Assembly: GCA_958296165.1 (NCBI GenBank)
Contig: OY282447.1
Coordinates: 992,001-1,056,000 of the forward strand
Reading direction: 5' to 3'
Length of the DNA: 64,000 nt
Source of the DNA: an uncultured Pseudomonadales bacterium
GTDB lineage: Bacteria; Pseudomonadota; Gammaproteobacteria; Pseudomonadales; Azotimanducaceae
This document shows, in pieces, positions 12,825 through 21,020 of this stretch; within the stretch, counting starts at the first letter, position 1, and every line of letters starts with the position of its first letter. Made by a program: the position numbers and the translations under genes. The notes under the pieces were generated by a model. It made no database searches. It was given only the letters and a program-made list of their open reading frames with translations, and was not told the origin of the DNA.

Positions 12825-14257
12825 GAGCGCTGGCGACGTTGCCGCTGCTCGTAGGCCTGTTCGCCTACGCCGAGGCGCCCGCGCCGCTCGAAGACCCGCT
12901 GCCGGAGAAGATCGCCAAGGGCGACATCGTTCTCGCCGCGGTGCCGTTCGTGCGCGCTCCGCGCAGCGCCGACCCTGCCAAGCCGGCCACTACCAACGCA
13001 GCGCATGCGCGATTGCAATACCTCCTGCCGATCCCGGATGGTTCCGGGCGGCTTGCGTTCAACGATGTGCGCGGCCTGCTCTACCTGACGGACGTAGACG
13101 GCAGCCCGCCTACGGTCTATCTGGATTTGCGCAGCCGCGATGTGGATTTCTACAACGCGCTGTTCCCCAACGAAGCGGGTCTGCTCGGCTTTGCCTTTCA
13201 CCCCGAGTTCGGGCAAGCAGGCACGCCTGGGTACGGCAAGCTCTACGTCGGCTTCAGCTCCGGTCCCGACAGCGGCATGGCCGCCTATCTGGATGAGAGC
13301 GGCGAGAGTGGCGAGAGTCAGGAGAGCGTGATCCGCGAGTTCACCGCCACGAGCTCCGCCGCCAATGCGTTTCAAGGCACGTCGCGGGAAGTGCTGCGGA
13401 TCGGCCAGTTCTCGCCCACCCACAATGTTGGCACGCTTGCCTTCAACCCGCACGCCGAGAAGGGCTCGCCGGATTACGGCAAGCTCTACATCTGCTTCGG
13501 CGACGGCGGCGGTCGTGACGATCCGCAAGAAAACGGCCAGAACCCGGCCACGCCGCTTGGCGCGATCTTGCGCATCGATCCCTTGGCTGGCGACGCCGAT
13601 CGGGGCTACGGCATCCCGGCGGACAATCCGTTTGCAGGCAAGGACGGCATGGCTACCGAGATCTGGGCCTATGGACTGCGCCACCCGCAGCAGTTCTCAT
13701 GGGACGTAGACGGTCGCATGTTCATAGGCGACATCGGCCAGGACCAAATCGAGGAAGTGAATCTTGGCGTGGCCGGCGGCAACTACGGCTGGCGGCTGCG
13801 CGAGGGCACGTTTGCGACGGCGTTCGGCGTGGACAGCTCAAATATCGGCCCGGTATTCGAACGCCCAGAAACAGATCCCGTCCCATTCGTCTATCCGGTT
13901 GCCCAGTACGATCACGACGAGGGCTTCGCCATCGCCGGCGGCTTCGTCTACCGCGGCGACGCCATCGCTGAACTGCGCGGCAGATACGTCTTCTCGGACA
14001 TCGCCCGCGGCCGCCTGTTTGCAATGGGTGTCGACAGTTTGACGCCGGGCAAACCGGCGGTGATCGAAGAAATCCGGCTGACCTTCGATGGCGTGGAGAA
14101 AGACCTAGTGGACGTAGCCGGCTTCGAGAACACCTACCACGGGCCGGATCATCCGCGTGTGGACTTGCGCTTGGGCATCGACCACCTCGGCGAGCTCTAT
14201 CTGCTCACCAAAGGCGACGGCTGGATTCGCAAGCTCGTTCCTACTAGCCGGCAATGA
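12821..14257 (+). CDS. Secreted PQQ-dependent sugar dehydrogenase-like beta-propeller (GSDH/HHIP family)
   Basis: Predicted exported six-bladed beta-propeller oxidoreductase of 478 residues. ATG 12821 overlaps the SDR stop and gives an N-terminal hydrophobic leader of about 18 residues. Family landmarks include GLLGFAFHPEF, HNVGTLAFNP, GDGGGRDDPQ, the calcium/PQQ-site-like GLRHPQQFSWD and FIGDIGQDQIEEVN, and GNYGWRLREG. These match the glucose/sorbosone dehydrogenase fold (PF07995) with soluble aldose sugar dehydrogenases as relatives. The likely role is periplasmic oxidation of sugars or alcohols, with electrons passed to the respiratory chain, but the cofactor and substrate are inferred. 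The 3' end overlaps the end of kdsB on the other strand by 14 bases. Confidence 0.85.
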   Translation: MRALATLPLLVGLFAYAEAPAPLEDPLPEKIAKGDIVLAAVPFVRAPRSADPAKPATTNAAHARLQYLLPIPDGSGRLAFNDVRGLLYLTDVDGSPPTVYLDLRSRDVDFYNALFPNEAGLLGFAFHPEFGQAGTPGYGKLYVGFSSGPDSGMAAYLDESGESGESQESVIREFTATSSAANAFQGTSREVLRIGQFSPTHNVGTLAFNPHAEKGSPDYGKLYICFGDGGGRDDPQENGQNPATPLGAILRIDPLAGDADRGYGIPADNPFAGKDGMATEIWAYGLRHPQQFSWDVDGRMFIGDIGQDQIEEVNLGVAGGNYGWRLREGTFATAFGVDSSNIGPVFERPETDPVPFVYPVAQYDHDEGFAIAGGFVYRGDAIAELRGRYVFSDIARGRLFAMGVDSLTPGKPAVIEEIRLTFDGVEKDLVDVAGFENTYHGPDHPRVDLRLGIDHLGELYLLTKGDGWIRKLVPTSRQ

Positions 14258-15005
14258 CGGCGCGCACCCGCTCTGCATCCGCCGGCGTGTCGACGCCGCC
14301 CGGCACCGCCGCCACGGCTTGGGCGACGGCGATGTGGCGGCCGTGATCGAGCAGCCGCAGTTGTTCGAGCGCCTCCACCTCCTCCAAGGGGCTTGGCGGC
14401 CAAGCCACGAACTCGCGCAGGGCGCGGATGCGGTAGGCGTAGATGCCCACGTGCCGCTGCCAATGCGCACCCTCTAGACGTTCGCCCGCGCCAGCGCCGA
14501 AGCCGGCGCGCGACCACGGGATCGGCGCCCGCGAGAAATACAACGCCCGGCCCGATCGATCCGCCACCACCTTGACGATGTTGGGATCGAACACATCCTC
14601 GCCACGCACGATCGGCTCGCACAGCGTGGCGACGCCGCAATCGCTGTAGGGCACATGCAGCAAGCCGGCGACTTGGTCGATCACGGCTGGCGGAATCAGC
14701 GGCTCGTCGCCTTGCACGTTGACGACGATTTCGTCCTCGCGCCAACCCCGCTGCGTTGCCACTTCCATAACGCGATCCGATCCCGACGGATGGGCCGCGC
14801 GGGTCATCGCCGCTTCTGCGGCGGTGCTTGCCACCGCTTGCGCGACGCGCTCGTCGTCGGTGGCGACGACGACGCTCTGCGCAGCCGATGCGAGCGCCTG
14901 CGTGGCAACGCGAGCGATCATGGTCATGCCGCCCAAGTCGAGCAACGGCTTGCCGGGCAGCCGCGAGGACGCGAAGCGGGCCGGAATCACAACGTGGAAA
15001 CTCAT
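14244..15005 (-). CDS. kdsB: 3-deoxy-manno-octulosonate cytidylyltransferase (CMP-Kdo synthetase)
   Basis: Activates Kdo as CMP-Kdo for lipopolysaccharide inner-core synthesis. The start is ATG 15005 (253 residues), overlapping the stop of the upstream fusion gene as ATGA; the frame extends upstream only inside that gene. Motifs are IPARFASSRLPGKPL at the N terminus (CTP binding), VVATDDERV, MTRAAHPSGSDRV, and VNVQGDEPLIPP. Size and motif order are normal. It is the last gene of the exbB-exbD-msbA/lpxK-kdsB operon, linking lipid A phosphorylation and flipping with core-sugar activation. In Pseudomonas the same order is seen with ycaR in between; here no such gene intervenes. Confidence 0.97.
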   Translation of the reverse strand: MSFHVVIPARFASSRLPGKPLLDLGGMTMIARVATQALASAAQSVVVATDDERVAQAVASTAAEAAMTRAAHPSGSDRVMEVATQRGWREDEIVVNVQGDEPLIPPAVIDQVAGLLHVPYSDCGVATLCEPIVRGEDVFDPNIVKVVADRSGRALYFSRAPIPWSRAGFGAGAGERLEGAHWQRHVGIYAYRIRALREFVAWPPSPLEEVEALEQLRLLDHGRHIAVAQAVAAVPGGVDTPADAERVRAVIAG

Positions 15006-17875
15006 GCCGCTTGCTCGTCGCGCGGACCGAGGGCGATGCCGCGGTCGGCGAAGATCCTCTCTAGGCGGTCGTCCACAGATTCGGCGAAGTGCATCTCGAT
15101 CTCCAAATACCAGCAGTGGGAGATGTCCGGCAGCACCTTGATCTTCTCCGCATCCTTCTCGGTGACTATCACCGCCGTACCGTCCTCGACCGCTACATCC
15201 GAGGGTTGGAAGCGGTGGTGATCGGGGAACGCCCGCATGGGGCCGGCGATGCCGAGCGCAAGCAAAGTGGCGCGAAAGCGCTCTGGATTGCCGACGCCCG
15301 CCACCGCCACCACTGCACCGCTGCACGATGCGAACTCGTCTGGGCTGAGGCGCTCGCCGGTGTGCAGGTTCACCACCGCGGTCGCGTGCGCCACCATCAC
15401 CGACTCGGCTTCCGCCAATCCCGCCGCCACGCCGTTGGCCACCACCCAATGGCATTCCCGCAATCGCGAAGCCGGCTCACGCAACGGCCCAGCCGGCAGG
15501 CACAGACCGTTGCCGAGCCCACGCAACCCATCGACCACAGCGATCTCCATGTCGCGCTCCAGCGCGTAGTGCTGCAGGCCGTCGTCGGCAACTATGATGT
15601 CTAGCTCCGCCTCCGCCAACAGGGCGCGCACGGCGCGGCCACGGTTCGGATCCACTGCCACCGGGCACTCGGCGCGACGGGCAATCATCGCCGCTTCGTC
15701 GCCGCATTGCGCCGCTGGCGTGTCGGCGTAGACCAAGAGCGGATACGCTGCTTTGCCGCCGTAGCCGCGCGAGACAACGCCCGTGCGCATGCCTCGCGCC
15801 TTCAACCAGCGCACTAGCCAGATCACCAGCGGCGTCTTGCCGGTACCTCCAGCGGTCACGTTGCCAACCATCACCACCGGCACCGGCGCTCGCCAAGAAC
15901 GGATGCGCCCGGCCAAGTAGCGGCTGCGCCGGCGCGTTGCCAACCAAGCGAACAACGCACTCACCGGCCACAACAGCCACGGCCAAAGGCGCCCTTCATA
16001 CCAGCCCTTCACCAGCGGCTCGAAGGTGCTCGCCACCGGCCGCAGCGGGGCCGGCTGCCGAGCCGGCGCGGCGGCTGCCGTGGCGGCGCTTTGGAACTGC
16101 GACCGATAGAGCTCTGCGTAGGCGCCATGCGCCGCCACCAGCGTGCGGTGGTCGCCCATCTCGACAATCCGGCCGTCGTCCACGACGACGATGACGTCCG
16201 CCTTCTCAACGGTGGACAAGCGGTGCGCAATCACGATCGTCGTGCGATCGCGCATCACCTCCTCTAGAGCGGCTTGCACTCGCTGCTCTGAAACCGCATC
16301 CAAGGACGACGTGGCCTCGTCCAGAATCAACACCGGCGCATCCTTCAAGAGCGCTCGAGCGATGGCGACGCGCTGCCGCTGGCCGCCGGAAAGCAGCACG
16401 CCGTCGTCGCCCACCACGGAGCTGAGGCCCTGCGGCATGTTCGCAACGAATCCATCGGCGTGGGCGCGGCGCAACGCGACGTCCAGGGCCTCGCTGCTCG
16501 TATCGGCCAAGCTCCCGTAGGCGATGTTGTTTGCCAGGGTGTCGTTAAACAACGTGACGTCCTGGGTCACCAAGGCGATTTGTCGGCGCAGGCAACTAAG
16601 CCGGTAGCTGCCGAGCGGCTCACCGTCGAGTAGGATGCGGCCGGAAGTTGGTTGATAGAAGCGCGCGATCAAGCTCGCAAACGTGGACTTGCCGGCGCCC
16701 GATGGCCCCACCAAAGCGACCGTTTGGCCCGGCTTGATGACGAGATCGATGTCGCGCAGCACCGGCGCCGCGTCTGCATCGTAGGCAAACGAGACGTGGT
16801 CGAAGCGTATCTCGCCCGCCACTCGTTCCACTTCCAAAGTGCCGGCGTCGTCTTCGCTAGGCTGGTCTAGCTGCGCGAAGATGTCCGTCGCGGCGGCCAG
16901 ACCCCGTTGCAGCCGGGCGTTGACATCCGAGAGCTTCTTGATGGGATTGGCCAACGCTCCGGCCAGCGTCAAATACGTCGCCAAATCGCCAGCCGACATG
17001 TCGCCGCCGAACTGCGGCAGCAAGATCAAACACACCAGAGTCGCCAGCGCCGCCGCCGCCAGCAGCTGGATGGTTTGCGCACTCAATGCCTTGGTCGCCA
17101 TCATCTTCAGATTCTGACGCCGGTTCCTATCGCTGGCCGCCACGAAGCGCTCGCGTTCATATTCCTCGCCGGCGAAGATCTTCACTTCCCGATAGCCGGA
17201 GACCGCCTCCGAAACAACGTGCGTCACGTTGCCCATGGAACTTTGGATGCGCTCGCTCAAGTTCCGGAAACGCCGCGACGTGTAGTGCATGATGGTGCCC
17301 ACGAGCGGCACGATGGCTAGAAAAGTGAGCGTCAGCAGCCAGTTCTGATAGAACAGCGCCGCTAGGAAGACGATTGCCTTCGCGCCATCGAATACCACGA
17401 TCTTCATTACATCCGTGGCCGTGTCGCGCACTTGCGAGGTGGTGAAGGTGAGCCGCGATACCAGGTTGCCCTGCGCACTCTTGTCGTAGAACGCGCTCGG
17501 CATCACGAGCAGGCGCTCGAACAGCCGCGAACGAATCACGTGGATGGCGCGGAACGAAACGCGCGACAAGGCGTATTCGCCAGCTACAGTGCCAAACGCC
17601 CGCGCCAGCGCCAATATCAGCATAGCGGTCGGCAGCGCCCAGATGTGCCACGGCAGCGGTGCGCCGACGGCGTCCACGATCAAGCCCAGCACCTTGGCGA
17701 AACCGAGTTCGCCACCGGTCGCCATCAGCGAGCCAACGACGGCCACCAGGAACCAAGCCTTTTGATCCGCGACGTAGCCGAGCAGCCGCCAATAGGTGCT
17801 CCAATCGCGGCGCGACGGTGCCGACCCGGCGACTTCGCCGGCAATCGGGGCTGGCACCGCGTTGCCCTCAGCCAT
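15002..17875 (-). CDS. msbA-lpxK: Natural MsbA-LpxK fusion: lipid A flippase plus lipid A 4'-kinase in one polypeptide
   Basis: A single uninterrupted frame of 957 residues. Residues 1-595 are a full MsbA-type ABC exporter: six-helix membrane domain to about 335, Walker A GPSGAGKST (390-398), signature LSGGQRQR (495-502), Walker B VLILDEATS (515 on) and the H-loop AHRLS. A linker of about 22 residues rich in Ala and Pro (596-617) leads into a complete LpxK (618-957): the membrane-associated N-terminal helix LWPWLLWPVSALFAWL, P-loop GNVTAGGTGKTP (671-682), VSRGYGG, and the second DDGLQHYALERD motif. LpxK phosphorylates the 4' position of the lipid A disaccharide; MsbA flips the product. In-frame GTG codons at V614 and V622 could restart LpxK alone. 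It overlaps exbD by 8 bases and kdsB by 4. Confidence 0.93.
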   Translation of the reverse strand: MAEGNAVPAPIAGEVAGSAPSRRDWSTYWRLLGYVADQKAWFLVAVVGSLMATGGELGFAKVLGLIVDAVGAPLPWHIWALPTAMLILALARAFGTVAGEYALSRVSFRAIHVIRSRLFERLLVMPSAFYDKSAQGNLVSRLTFTTSQVRDTATDVMKIVVFDGAKAIVFLAALFYQNWLLTLTFLAIVPLVGTIMHYTSRRFRNLSERIQSSMGNVTHVVSEAVSGYREVKIFAGEEYERERFVAASDRNRRQNLKMMATKALSAQTIQLLAAAALATLVCLILLPQFGGDMSAGDLATYLTLAGALANPIKKLSDVNARLQRGLAAATDIFAQLDQPSEDDAGTLEVERVAGEIRFDHVSFAYDADAAPVLRDIDLVIKPGQTVALVGPSGAGKSTFASLIARFYQPTSGRILLDGEPLGSYRLSCLRRQIALVTQDVTLFNDTLANNIAYGSLADTSSEALDVALRRAHADGFVANMPQGLSSVVGDDGVLLSGGQRQRVAIARALLKDAPVLILDEATSSLDAVSEQRVQAALEEVMRDRTTIVIAHRLSTVEKADVIVVVDDGRIVEMGDHRTLVAAHGAYAELYRSQFQSAATAAAAPARQPAPLRPVASTFEPLVKGWYEGRLWPWLLWPVSALFAWLATRRRSRYLAGRIRSWRAPVPVVMVGNVTAGGTGKTPLVIWLVRWLKARGMRTGVVSRGYGGKAAYPLLVYADTPAAQCGDEAAMIARRAECPVAVDPNRGRAVRALLAEAELDIIVADDGLQHYALERDMEIAVVDGLRGLGNGLCLPAGPLREPASRLRECHWVVANGVAAGLAEAESVMVAHATAVVNLHTGERLSPDEFASCSGAVVAVAGVGNPERFRATLLALGIAGPMRAFPDHHRFQPSDVAVEDGTAVIVTEKDAEKIKVLPDISHCWYLEIEMHFAESVDDRLERIFADRGIALGPRDEQAA

Positions 17876-18308
17876 CGGCCTGCCCTCTCTCTGCTGCGTC
17901 AGTCGACGGTACGGTGGCGATGCGTATTTCCGTTAGCCCGTTCCGCCCTGCCGCGTCCAATACCCGCACCACCGCCTGATGGGGCGTTCGGGCGTCGGCT
18001 GCGACCACCACCCGATCGGTGGCACCCGCGGTCGCGGCCAGCGCCTGCAGCAGCGTATCAAGTTCGCTGTCTGGCAGCAGGCGGCCGTTCACGGAGTAGC
18101 GTCCGGCAGCGTCCACGCGCACTTCCACATGGGCAGCGGACGGTGCTACGCCGGCCTCGGCTTGGGGCAGTTCGACGGTAAGTTGCCACTCGCGCAGGAA
18201 CGTGGTGGATGCCATGAAGAAGATCAGCAGCAGGAACACCACATCGATCAATGGCGTTAGTTCGACCACCGCGGCTTGACCGCTGCGGCGCGGGCGCTTG
18301 AAGGTCAT
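17868..18308 (-). CDS. exbD: ExbD/TolR-family biopolymer transport protein
   Basis: Inner membrane protein of 146 residues with one N-terminal membrane helix carrying the proton-path aspartate (D22) in LTPLIDVVFLLLIFFM, followed by a periplasmic domain of about 100 residues. It works with ExbB as a proton-driven motor that energises outer-membrane processes through TonB or TolA-like partners. Its start overlaps the exbB stop (ATGA) and its stop overlaps the msbA-lpxK start by 8 bases. In Pseudomonas an exbB/exbD pair also sits directly before lpxK, so the placement is a conserved neighbourhood rather than evidence for iron uptake. No tonB gene is near. Confidence 0.93.
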   Translation of the reverse strand: MTFKRPRRSGQAAVVELTPLIDVVFLLLIFFMASTTFLREWQLTVELPQAEAGVAPSAAHVEVRVDAAGRYSVNGRLLPDSELDTLLQALAATAGATDRVVVAADARTPHQAVVRVLDAAGRNGLTEIRIATVPSTDAAERGQADG

Positions 18309-18913
18309 AGCTGCAACTCGGGATGCACGCGATCGAGGAATGCCGCGGCCTGGCCTTCCATGACGATCACCAGATCGTCCACCTTGCGCAAGAGATAACG
18401 GTGGAAGATCAACGCGGGAATGGCCACTACGAGGCCTGCGGCGGTGGTGACGAGCGCTTCCGAGATGCCTCCAGCCAAGGCGGCTGGATTGCCGGCGCCA
18501 TCGGCGAGCAGCGCCTTGAACACACGGATCATGCCTACCACGGTGCCAAGCAGCCCAAGCAGCGGACTGATCGACGCGATCGTGCCGAGCGTGGTGAGGT
18601 AGCGCTCTAGATCATGCACCACGCCGGCGGCGGCCTCCACCATGGCTTCCTGCATGCGTTCCCGGCCGCGGCCTTTGGCCAGCAGGCCGGCGGCGAGGAT
18701 CCGCCCCAAGCCGCTCTGCCCGCAGAGCGCTTCGAGCTCGACTGCATCGAACTTGCCGTGGCTTTCGTCCGACAGCCGTTTCACCAGACCCGACGGTGCA
18801 ACCTCGGAAGTGCGCAGCGACCAGGCTCGCTCGATGCAAATGCCCGCCGCCAGCACGCTGGCGAGCGTGATCGGCAACATCAACCAGCCGCCCGCTTGGA
18901 GTATTTCCAGCAT
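18305..18913 (-). CDS. exbB: ExbB/TolQ/MotA-family proton channel protein
   Basis: Three-helix inner membrane protein of 202 residues. The first helix lies at residues 10-28; the second and third, with the conserved SISPLLGLLGTVVGMIRVFKAL and GISEALVTTAAGLVVAIPALIFHRYL stretches, form the channel. It pairs with the next gene, exbD. It is the first gene of the envelope operon and follows a 94-base gap that should contain the operon promoter, where I see a perfect 7-bp hairpin but no confident hexamers. Confidence 0.93.
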   Translation of the reverse strand: MLEILQAGGWLMLPITLASVLAAGICIERAWSLRTSEVAPSGLVKRLSDESHGKFDAVELEALCGQSGLGRILAAGLLAKGRGRERMQEAMVEAAAGVVHDLERYLTTLGTIASISPLLGLLGTVVGMIRVFKALLADGAGNPAALAGGISEALVTTAAGLVVAIPALIFHRYLLRKVDDLVIVMEGQAAAFLDRVHPELQL

Positions 18914-19007: not shown

Positions 19008-21020
19008 CTAGCGTCGCCACCAGCGCGGCGGACGAATTGGCCGGTTGAGAAACTCCTCGGTGTATTTGCGATTCAGCGTGATTTGCCCGGACGCGCTGCC
19101 GCCATCGTCTAGCAGCCAATCCGGGATGTCGGCTCGCATTCGGGTGGACTCCATGGTCGCAACGGAGATCACGATGCGCTCGCCCGACGTCGTCCAGCAA
19201 CCTTCGGGCGGACGACGGGCCGCGTCGTGTCTATCCCCATGCAGGATGTTGTTCAGCAGCAAGCGCGGCCGCTCGAACGCACGCTGTTGGTACTCGTCAA
19301 GCGTCATCGGCGCGCACCAGTCCGGCAGCGGCGTCGTGGCCGGCAAGTGCTCCTCGAACAGCGCGCACAGGGCCTGGGAAGAAAGGTGCAGCGCGTCCAC
19401 GTCGTGATCTTTCTCGAGCGCCTCGTCCACCAGCGCCATCGCGCGTTGCAGGAAGCACCGGTACAACGCGGTGGACAGACGCTCGCGAATGGCCGCCACC
19501 GAACGCTGCAAGGACTTTCTGGCCGCGGTGTTGTCGCCCGGCAGCGAGGTGCGCGTGTAGATCATCAGGCAGCGCTTGATGATCTCCGCCTTGAAGCTCC
19601 GTGCATCGGCATTCATGGAGAGCGCAAAGCACGGATATTCGTGATACGGAATGGTCTCGTCCTTGATGATCTCGTCCGCATAGCGGCTGAAACGATCTCG
19701 CGTGACGTCGTCGAACACCACGGGGAAGCGTTTGTATGTCTGCTGCAGGCCACGCAGCTTGCCCGGCGTGAAGTCCTGCGTGTCGATGATGCGTGGGTAT
19801 TGGAACATCGACGTCATGAGCATATCCACCAAACTGGTCTTGCCGCAGTTGCTGGCGCCGAACAGCACGGCAAACAACGGCTGATCGAAACTAAACGCAT
19901 TGTTGCGCAGCGCCGCGTTGCGCAGATCGCACATCAATGGAGATATGTAGAACCAGCACAGGAACGTGAAGTAATCCCGCCGCAAACGCGCGACGTCGCC
20001 CACGAAGCCGTTTTCGTAATTGCGGAAGAACTCCAGCCAACACGCGACATCTTCTTGAACGCTCGCCGATTCCACATCGAGCGACATCGGTTCTCCCGAC
20101 AGGACGAAGCCCTTGCCGGTACGCGATAGATATGTTGCCGGCGCCGCATCGGCGTGGCGCGAGTGAACGATGCGCGAGATCTGCTTGACGATGCGCGGCG
20201 TCAAACGCAACCGCGCGCCTCGATCTGGCTTCATGTCTGCCATGCCCCGACGAAGCGCGGGCTTGATGGCTTCCACCTTCGCCACCACTTCGGCTACGGA
20301 ATAGCCCTGCTCCGCTTCGACTTCGTTCGGCACATACAGCGTCGTGCCGTCTGGGTCTCGTTCCGCCTCGATCATGGCCGGCACCTGCTCCACCCATATC
20401 TTCTCGGCGGCGGGCTTCGCCTCTTCGCGCAGCGGCAGGCGGCTGGTGGATGCATCGCGGACTGCTTCGTACTGCGCCGCGTAATGCTGCCAAGCCGTCT
20501 CATCATCGTCGAAGACGATCAGCGTCTCCGCTTGGCGTCCGGAGAAGGCTCGTTCAGACAAATTGGCCGAACCGACGATGACGCGCTTCCTGTTCGGGCC
20601 TTCCAAGAGATATATCTTGGCGTGCGCGATGACGTCCTTGACGACGAAGAAGCGCACTTCTTCCCGCGCCACGCGGTCGTGGATCGCCTTGCGGCGTTCC
20701 GGCGCCACCCCTTGCAACGCCACGATGCTGTCTCGCAGCCCATCCGCGACGACGTCTTGAAAGGCGAGGATTTCTGCCGCATCCCGGGAGAGGATGCCGC
20801 CATGCCCGAAAACGCACTCGAAGGCGTCGAAATCATGTTCCACGAGCAGCCCGGCGATCATCGGAATACTCGACGAGTAGGTGAGCGCCCGCATGGTAGT
20901 GAAGCCTGCAAAGTACGTTTGCCCAAACGACGCCACGGACTCCGCACGAGCGTGGACGACGTTCAGCTCGCCGCGCCGCGTTATGGATTCGGCATCGTCG
21001 AACAGCAATTGGCTTGGCAT
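19008..21020 (-). CDS. PLD-superfamily nuclease fused to a P-loop ATPase/helicase-like domain
   Basis: A 670-residue protein I cannot place in a named family. Residues about 1-195 form a phospholipase D-like nuclease unit with one HKD-type motif: H133 and K135 in AHAKIYLLEG, then GSANLSERAFSG (S151, N153). Residues 200-300 are a charged linker region. Residues 320-520 contain a P-loop ATPase core: Walker A FGASNCGKTS (387-396), Walker B RFPVVFDDV (431-439), a sensor-like FALSMNADARS (465-475) and a basic IIKRCLMIYTR, an order similar to superfamily 3 helicases. The C-terminal 130 residues are unassigned. PLD nuclease plus NTPase architectures are common in anti-phage and anti-plasmid systems; that role is inference. 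It stands alone, 147 bases downstream of another ATPase gene on the same strand. Confidence 0.7.
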   Translation of the reverse strand: MPSQLLFDDAESITRRGELNVVHARAESVASFGQTYFAGFTTMRALTYSSSIPMIAGLLVEHDFDAFECVFGHGGILSRDAAEILAFQDVVADGLRDSIVALQGVAPERRKAIHDRVAREEVRFFVVKDVIAHAKIYLLEGPNRKRVIVGSANLSERAFSGRQAETLIVFDDDETAWQHYAAQYEAVRDASTSRLPLREEAKPAAEKIWVEQVPAMIEAERDPDGTTLYVPNEVEAEQGYSVAEVVAKVEAIKPALRRGMADMKPDRGARLRLTPRIVKQISRIVHSRHADAAPATYLSRTGKGFVLSGEPMSLDVESASVQEDVACWLEFFRNYENGFVGDVARLRRDYFTFLCWFYISPLMCDLRNAALRNNAFSFDQPLFAVLFGASNCGKTSLVDMLMTSMFQYPRIIDTQDFTPGKLRGLQQTYKRFPVVFDDVTRDRFSRYADEIIKDETIPYHEYPCFALSMNADARSFKAEIIKRCLMIYTRTSLPGDNTAARKSLQRSVAAIRERLSTALYRCFLQRAMALVDEALEKDHDVDALHLSSQALCALFEEHLPATTPLPDWCAPMTLDEYQQRAFERPRLLLNNILHGDRHDAARRPPEGCWTTSGERIVISVATMESTRMRADIPDWLLDDGGSASGQITLNRKYTEEFLNRPIRPPRWWRR

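Follow-up and report, generated by a model that had tools for sequence, protein, structure and literature searches.

Are the lipid A flippase MsbA and the lipid A kinase LpxK genuinely encoded as one polypeptide at this locus and, if so, how did that state arise and what could it bring to the cell? The locus lies in 64,000 nucleotides of DNA from an uncultured Pseudomonadales bacterium (contig OY282447.1), the whole of which is referred to here as the window. The msbA-lpxK fusion gene occupies 15002-17875 on the minus strand, has 957 codons with an ATG start and encodes a protein with a calculated mass of 103.2 kDa. Its parts, all on the same strand, are an MsbA part of six long helices and an ATPase domain (residues 27-595; 16091-17797), an Ala/Pro-rich linker (residues 596-618; 16022-16090) and an LpxK part with kinase motifs and N-terminal helices (residues 619-957; 15005-16021). 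Residues 27-595 match the NCBIfam MsbA model TIGR02203 at 678.7 bits, above its cut-off of 602, while the LpxK model TIGR00682 is matched by residues 632-943 at 257.5 bits (cut-off 91.95) and the Pfam LpxK model by residues 632-941 at 343.7 bits. With both halves above curated cut-offs, the original prediction that a single frame joins a full MsbA to a full LpxK through a short Ala/Pro linker is borne out, and a complete MsbA carrying a complete LpxK at its C-terminus is confirmed as a genuine fused frame. A local error at 16030-16120, the kind of fault that had been raised as a possible refutation, is practically excluded, as the full fusion occurs in each of the 14 other congeneric genomes whose locus was fetched (15 are listed, the fifteenth as a fragment only).

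In the MsbA part, the alignment identifies K396, S496, E520 and H551, which we take to be the Walker A, signature, Walker B and H-loop residues, and these four are invariant in the alignment columns of 48/48 fused and 35/35 separate rows. R92 and K313 of the fusion match R78 and K299 of E. coli MsbA, and the position of E. coli R148 is occupied by F162; the three E. coli residues are presumably lipid A phosphate contacts. The F162 codon lies at 17390-17392; at this position 26/48 fused rows have Q, whereas 24/35 separate rows have R. The fusion resembles known MsbA proteins (TIGR02203; PDB 9bd6, "PaMsbA", and 6bpl) in its full domain and ATPase residues, with 247/582 residues identical to E. 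coli MsbA and a fold-search identity of 48% to 9bd6, and departs from them in its C-terminal kinase extension and in the F at the R148 position. A second MsbA or LpxK above cut-off was absent from the window genome, a single contig of 5.07 Mb that has one of each. In genome G000 the MsbA model has 83 matches, of which one is above cut-off; several strong matches are paired with a neighbour.

The LpxK part retains the kinase motifs and, going by the model, the N-terminal helices of known LpxK proteins (TIGR00682; PDB 4ehw and 4ehx) and has 151/328 residues identical to the E. coli enzyme, but in the window it lacks its own start with a Shine-Dalgarno sequence and its N-terminus is tied to MsbA. 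When aligned to 4ehw and 4ehx it shows a P-loop GGTGKT at 676-681, DDGLQH at 764-769 and PDHH at 884-887, and DDGLQH or DDGMQH is present in 47/48 fused rows. According to the available text of PMC6286764, D138, D139 and H261 are important residues of Aquifex LpxK, and the N-terminal amphipathic helix of LpxK is needed for activity and sits on the lipid-binding face. The PDH region of the fusion would, in our own reading of the alignment, correspond to H261, and the helices that the AlphaFold2 model places at the kinase N-terminus (residues 619-626 and 631-654) come after the linker. The relation to 4ehw and 4ehx was established by sequence and not by fold search, where the 50 matches listed are ABC exporters, MsbA first, with LpxK absent among them.

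Distribution of the fusion

Related genomes were surveyed for proteins with both domains. Frame length alone was not used to call a fusion; only loci verified domain by domain were counted, because several long frames proved to be something else, namely a 968-codon frame in another family (genome G305, locus L111) and four in the phylum survey (L180-L183). LpxK was found in 183 of the 206 genomes of the window's family, as a single match in all but two of them (G000 and G156). Besides the window's own, 96 family loci were checked; separate-looking loci were picked deliberately, the rest were spread over genera, and loci of the window genus and further fused-looking ones were added later, making this a non-random sample. 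The fusion is complete in 74 of the 96, cut by a contig end in four and joined to a partial MsbA in three, bringing the fused loci to 81; the genes are adjacent but separate in 13, and two loci are ambiguous. The fusion was seen in 30 of 31 family genera examined and is the rule in this family. Nine loci found by another search, some of which may come from the counted genomes, are also fusions (L032-L039 and L042). Two family loci have an unusual structure. At L110 (genome G062), a short N-terminal MsbA-looking piece is joined to LpxK between exbD and kdsB, with no MsbA match within the fetched stretch, reflecting either assembly collapse or a real deletion. At L150 (genome G092), MsbA is interrupted by an in-frame stop, and the ATPase half together with LpxK forms its own frame.

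Further out the picture changes. The order survey found LpxK in 376/390 genomes, and the one frame of more than 600 codons among the rows listed outside the family is not a fusion. No fusion was present in the 16 other order families whose loci were fetched: MsbA is adjacent to LpxK in nine and not found within the fetched stretch in seven. The expectation that relatives keep the two genes adjacent but separate therefore fails for the window's family and holds for these nine families. In the class survey (LpxK in 134/139 genomes), four genomes besides that of the window contain a frame of 913-970 codons. Each of these frames is an in-frame fusion, and they come from four other gammaproteobacterial families (f111, f132, f92 and f77). 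Of the four f132 loci, three are fused and the other has separate genes. In the phylum survey, with a match in 136/145 genomes, none of the four long frames checked outside the class is a fusion. In the other families, the fetched stretch includes MsbA at 19 separate loci, with a distance of up to 200 bases at 18, and in five of these 18 close pairs the two genes share a common frame with a single stop between them.

The original note knew of no described MsbA-LpxK fusion, and none was found among the literature matches listed, with subscription papers and preprints outside the scope of the search. The available portions of PMC4412817, PMC6286764, PMC13333357 and PMC2626281 do not describe one, and that of PMC3087551 refers to a fusion of LpxC with FabZ and to a cluster of waaA and lpxK, not to an MsbA-LpxK fusion. 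The LpxC-FabZ fusion of Bacteroidetes and others is alike in that neighbouring genes of a lipid A cluster have been fused, but it involves other enzymes and other phyla (PMC3087551, as far as its available text goes).

Gains and a probable loss of the fusion

The history of the fusion was followed on trees. A first tree omitted 12 of 95 candidate loci in which MsbA was missing or short, leaving 83 rows, and a careful tree of MsbA plus LpxK omitted a further 18 of these, mostly near relatives of retained rows, giving 65 rows and 931 columns. On the careful tree the fused label changes seven times, with at least four changes forced by well-supported branches; this count does not distinguish gain from loss. 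A single group of the fused rows of all families, with the separate g8 rows inside and the separate g51 rows outside, is rejected (P value of the approximately unbiased test, p-AU, 2e-5, weakened by the group having been defined after the tree was seen). The long-branched rows L178 and L179 took different places in the two trees. A single common origin of all fusions is thus rejected and, since separate genes prevail in the class, we read the tree as more than one gain of the fusion in the class, probably three or more. Within the window's family the fusion is probably old.

Holding together only the fused rows of the family is also rejected (p-AU 3e-17), because a separate part of genus g8 (nine loci in the first tree, six in the careful one) is nested among fused rows. 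This subclade is probably a case of fission, in which the genes were split again, the alternative being several separate fusions. For the separate lpxK genes of g8 (L097-L105), TTG or GTG are the sole start candidates found in seven of nine, several lack a clear Shine-Dalgarno sequence, and in five of the nine a TTG immediately precedes the kinase's conserved Trp-Tyr. Both genes are in one frame in five of these loci and in different frames in the other four. Read-through or frameshifting was considered for them and is not favoured, because a TTG, GTG or ATG precedes the kinase and the frames differ in four of nine. Genus g51, with four loci in the tree, was at one point a candidate for a second fission. 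This was dropped, as a single group of all other family rows without g51 is not rejected (p-AU 0.557) and the tree with g51 outside has a slightly higher likelihood than the alternative; g51 may keep the ancestral separate state.

Junction and competing explanations

Is LpxK also made alone? The stretch in which its start would lie was located by alignment anchors. At the window junction there is no ATG, and both of the two in-frame GTG codons lack a Shine-Dalgarno sequence. The junction carries an ATG in 32 of the 74 fused family genes, an ATG with a Shine-Dalgarno sequence in one, and any start with a Shine-Dalgarno sequence in 10. The corresponding counts are 14, 6 and 9 for 19 separate genes of other families, 4, 4 and 4 for the four separate g51 genes, and 2, 0 and 3 for the nine separate g8 genes. 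The rarity of ATG with a Shine-Dalgarno sequence at fused junctions suggests that LpxK is probably made only as a fusion, and the test can be no more than suggestive because it misses many true starts of separate genes.

The linker varies considerably. Across 80 fused loci of all families it measures 16-72 residues (median 29) and is rich in Ala, Pro, Ser and Gly. On a tree of 36 fused family rows its length changes at least 28 times, a figure that may in part be alignment noise as lengths were set by alignment ends, and the frame is kept throughout. AlphaFold2, run with 20 aligned sequences, gave a mean predicted local distance difference test score (pLDDT) of 77.9 and a predicted template modelling score (pTM) of 0.42; the kinase scores mostly 80-94 and the linker mostly below 50. 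Values below 50 fall at residues 595-616 and, inside MsbA, at 126-137, 214-237 and 521-525. The model suggests that the linker is probably disordered.

We consider the best explanation, in which we have moderate confidence, to be a bifunctional protein that would have arisen by stop loss, with independent modules, 1:1 output and a tethered kinase. The msbA stop codon would have been lost where msbA and lpxK lay end to end in an overlapped operon, a likely route given that five of the 18 close pairs outside the family have a common frame and one stop between the genes, and the separate lpxK start would then have decayed. The MsbA and LpxK halves would probably work as independent modules of a long protein that stays uncleaved with both halves active, an MsbA dimer carrying two tethered kinases and so fixing output at 1:1 and holding LpxK at the inner membrane. 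The LpxK product would leave, be modified by a separate transferase of 3-deoxy-D-manno-octulosonic acid (Kdo) and by acyltransferases, and then be flipped by MsbA. Any benefit would accordingly lie in co-expression and tethering rather than in hand-over. A fixed 1:1 output would be near the ratio in an E. coli cell, for which the available text of PMC4412817 uses molecule numbers of about 206 for MsbA and an estimated 432 for LpxK. Several points weigh against this explanation. The model, with its few sequences, low pTM and poorly scored MsbA stretches, supports neither contact nor separation and leaves the placement of MsbA relative to LpxK undecided. The start test was passed by only 6 of the 19 other-family separate genes and none of the nine in g8, and 31 of the 32 fused genes with a junction ATG have no Shine-Dalgarno sequence accompanying it. 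The nested g8 subclade shows that the fusion is dispensable there, and the presence of fusions in several families could hint at a partnership more specific than tethering.

Direct hand-over, as originally proposed, would take the LpxK product straight to the MsbA half of its own chain, whether or not WaaA is docked between the two. The shared membrane face at which the two halves act speaks for it. However, WaaA and two acyltransferases stand between the two reactions, and in the window genome WaaA is a separate gene, as are two LpxL/M-type acyltransferase genes; the linker, moreover, is variable in length and of very low model confidence. The proposal is therefore not upheld, and we regard it as highly improbable. 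WaaA is matched in 190/206 family genomes, 189 of them above cut-off. It is also conceivable, if improbable, that the linker is cleaved after translation or that LpxK is made from an internal start as well, leaving the working proteins partly or wholly separate. The probable disorder of the linker, the two in-frame GTG codons of the window and the junction ATG codons of other family genes would allow this, against which stand the missing Shine-Dalgarno sequence at both window codons and the scarcity of such sequences at fused junctions generally. An artefact of sequencing or assembly that joined two genes can practically be dismissed, given the 14 fused genomes of the genus and the 81 fused family loci, and nothing in its favour was found for the window.

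The stop loss may also have been a mere accident, hard to reverse once the lpxK start had decayed, with the halves acting as if apart and no benefit gained. This neutral ratchet is a possible though doubtful account. Separate neighbours are often one stop apart, start signals are scarce at fused junctions, linkers are variable and dominated by Ala, Pro, Ser and Gly, and the nested subclade is separate again with mainly TTG or GTG to start from, all as a ratchet would have it. More than one origin in the class and presence in 30 of the 31 family genera examined count against it, but neither point excludes neutrality, and persistence alone is no proof of benefit, because breaking the frame would be harmful once the sole kinase copy lacks its own start. 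Repeated origin suggests either an easy mutation in a packed operon or a physical partnership. We think it rather unlikely, but worth stating, that in many Gammaproteobacteria a physical partnership links LpxK to MsbA, also where separate genes encode them, the two being the entry and exit of an inner-membrane unit assembling lipopolysaccharide (LPS), with the kinase sensing or following the working state of the flippase. If so, lipid IVA would be committed only where it can be exported, and the repeated fusions would bear witness to the partnership.

A fusion gained more than once and probably undone at least once amounts to a natural comparative experiment, one that could show whether the inner membrane has physically organised LPS enzymes, and whether the ratio of these enzymes or their position makes a difference. 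MsbA and LpxK are members of the essential lipid A pathway (PMC10328246, available text), and MsbA inhibitors are known (PMC6286764, likewise). Annotation of such loci by a single domain would overlook half of the protein.

Operon and pathway context

The fusion gene sits in a tightly packed operon on the minus strand, as seen from overlaps of 4, 8 and 4 bases. An ExbB/TolQ-like gene (18305-18913) overlaps by 4 bases an ExbD/TolR-like gene (17868-18308) directly upstream of the fusion, which the latter overlaps by 8 bases, and the end of the fusion overlaps by 4 bases the cytidine monophosphate-Kdo synthetase gene kdsB (14247-15005). Most of the 74 fully fused family loci share this arrangement: 73 have KdsB downstream, 64 have ExbD upstream and 63 have ExbB upstream. 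At loci with enough sequence for a judgement, ExbB is absent in nine and ExbD in seven. The msbA-lpxK operon of E. coli K-12 (L196) matches in gene content and order, its msbA and lpxK overlapping by 4 bases and kdsB coming further downstream, and the available text of PMC10328246 likewise assigns E. coli msbA and lpxK to one operon. In E. coli K-12, however, the genes encode two proteins rather than one, lpxK is separated from kdsB by ycaQ and ycaR, and it is the window that has exbB/exbD-like genes before the fusion. Upstream of the operon, a 670-codon frame (19008-21020, minus strand) had no match in an NCBIfam search and matches a phospholipase D (PLD)-like, NgoFVII-type nuclease at residues 106-191.

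Elsewhere in the family, nine genomes lack LpxK: G025 and G118-G121 in genus g11, G028 and G067 in g14, G117 in g53 and G099 in g49. WaaA is absent from these nine save for one weak match in G099, and LpxC from the eight in which it was sought (the nine less G118). The lipid A pathway thus seems to have been lost in four genera of the window's family.

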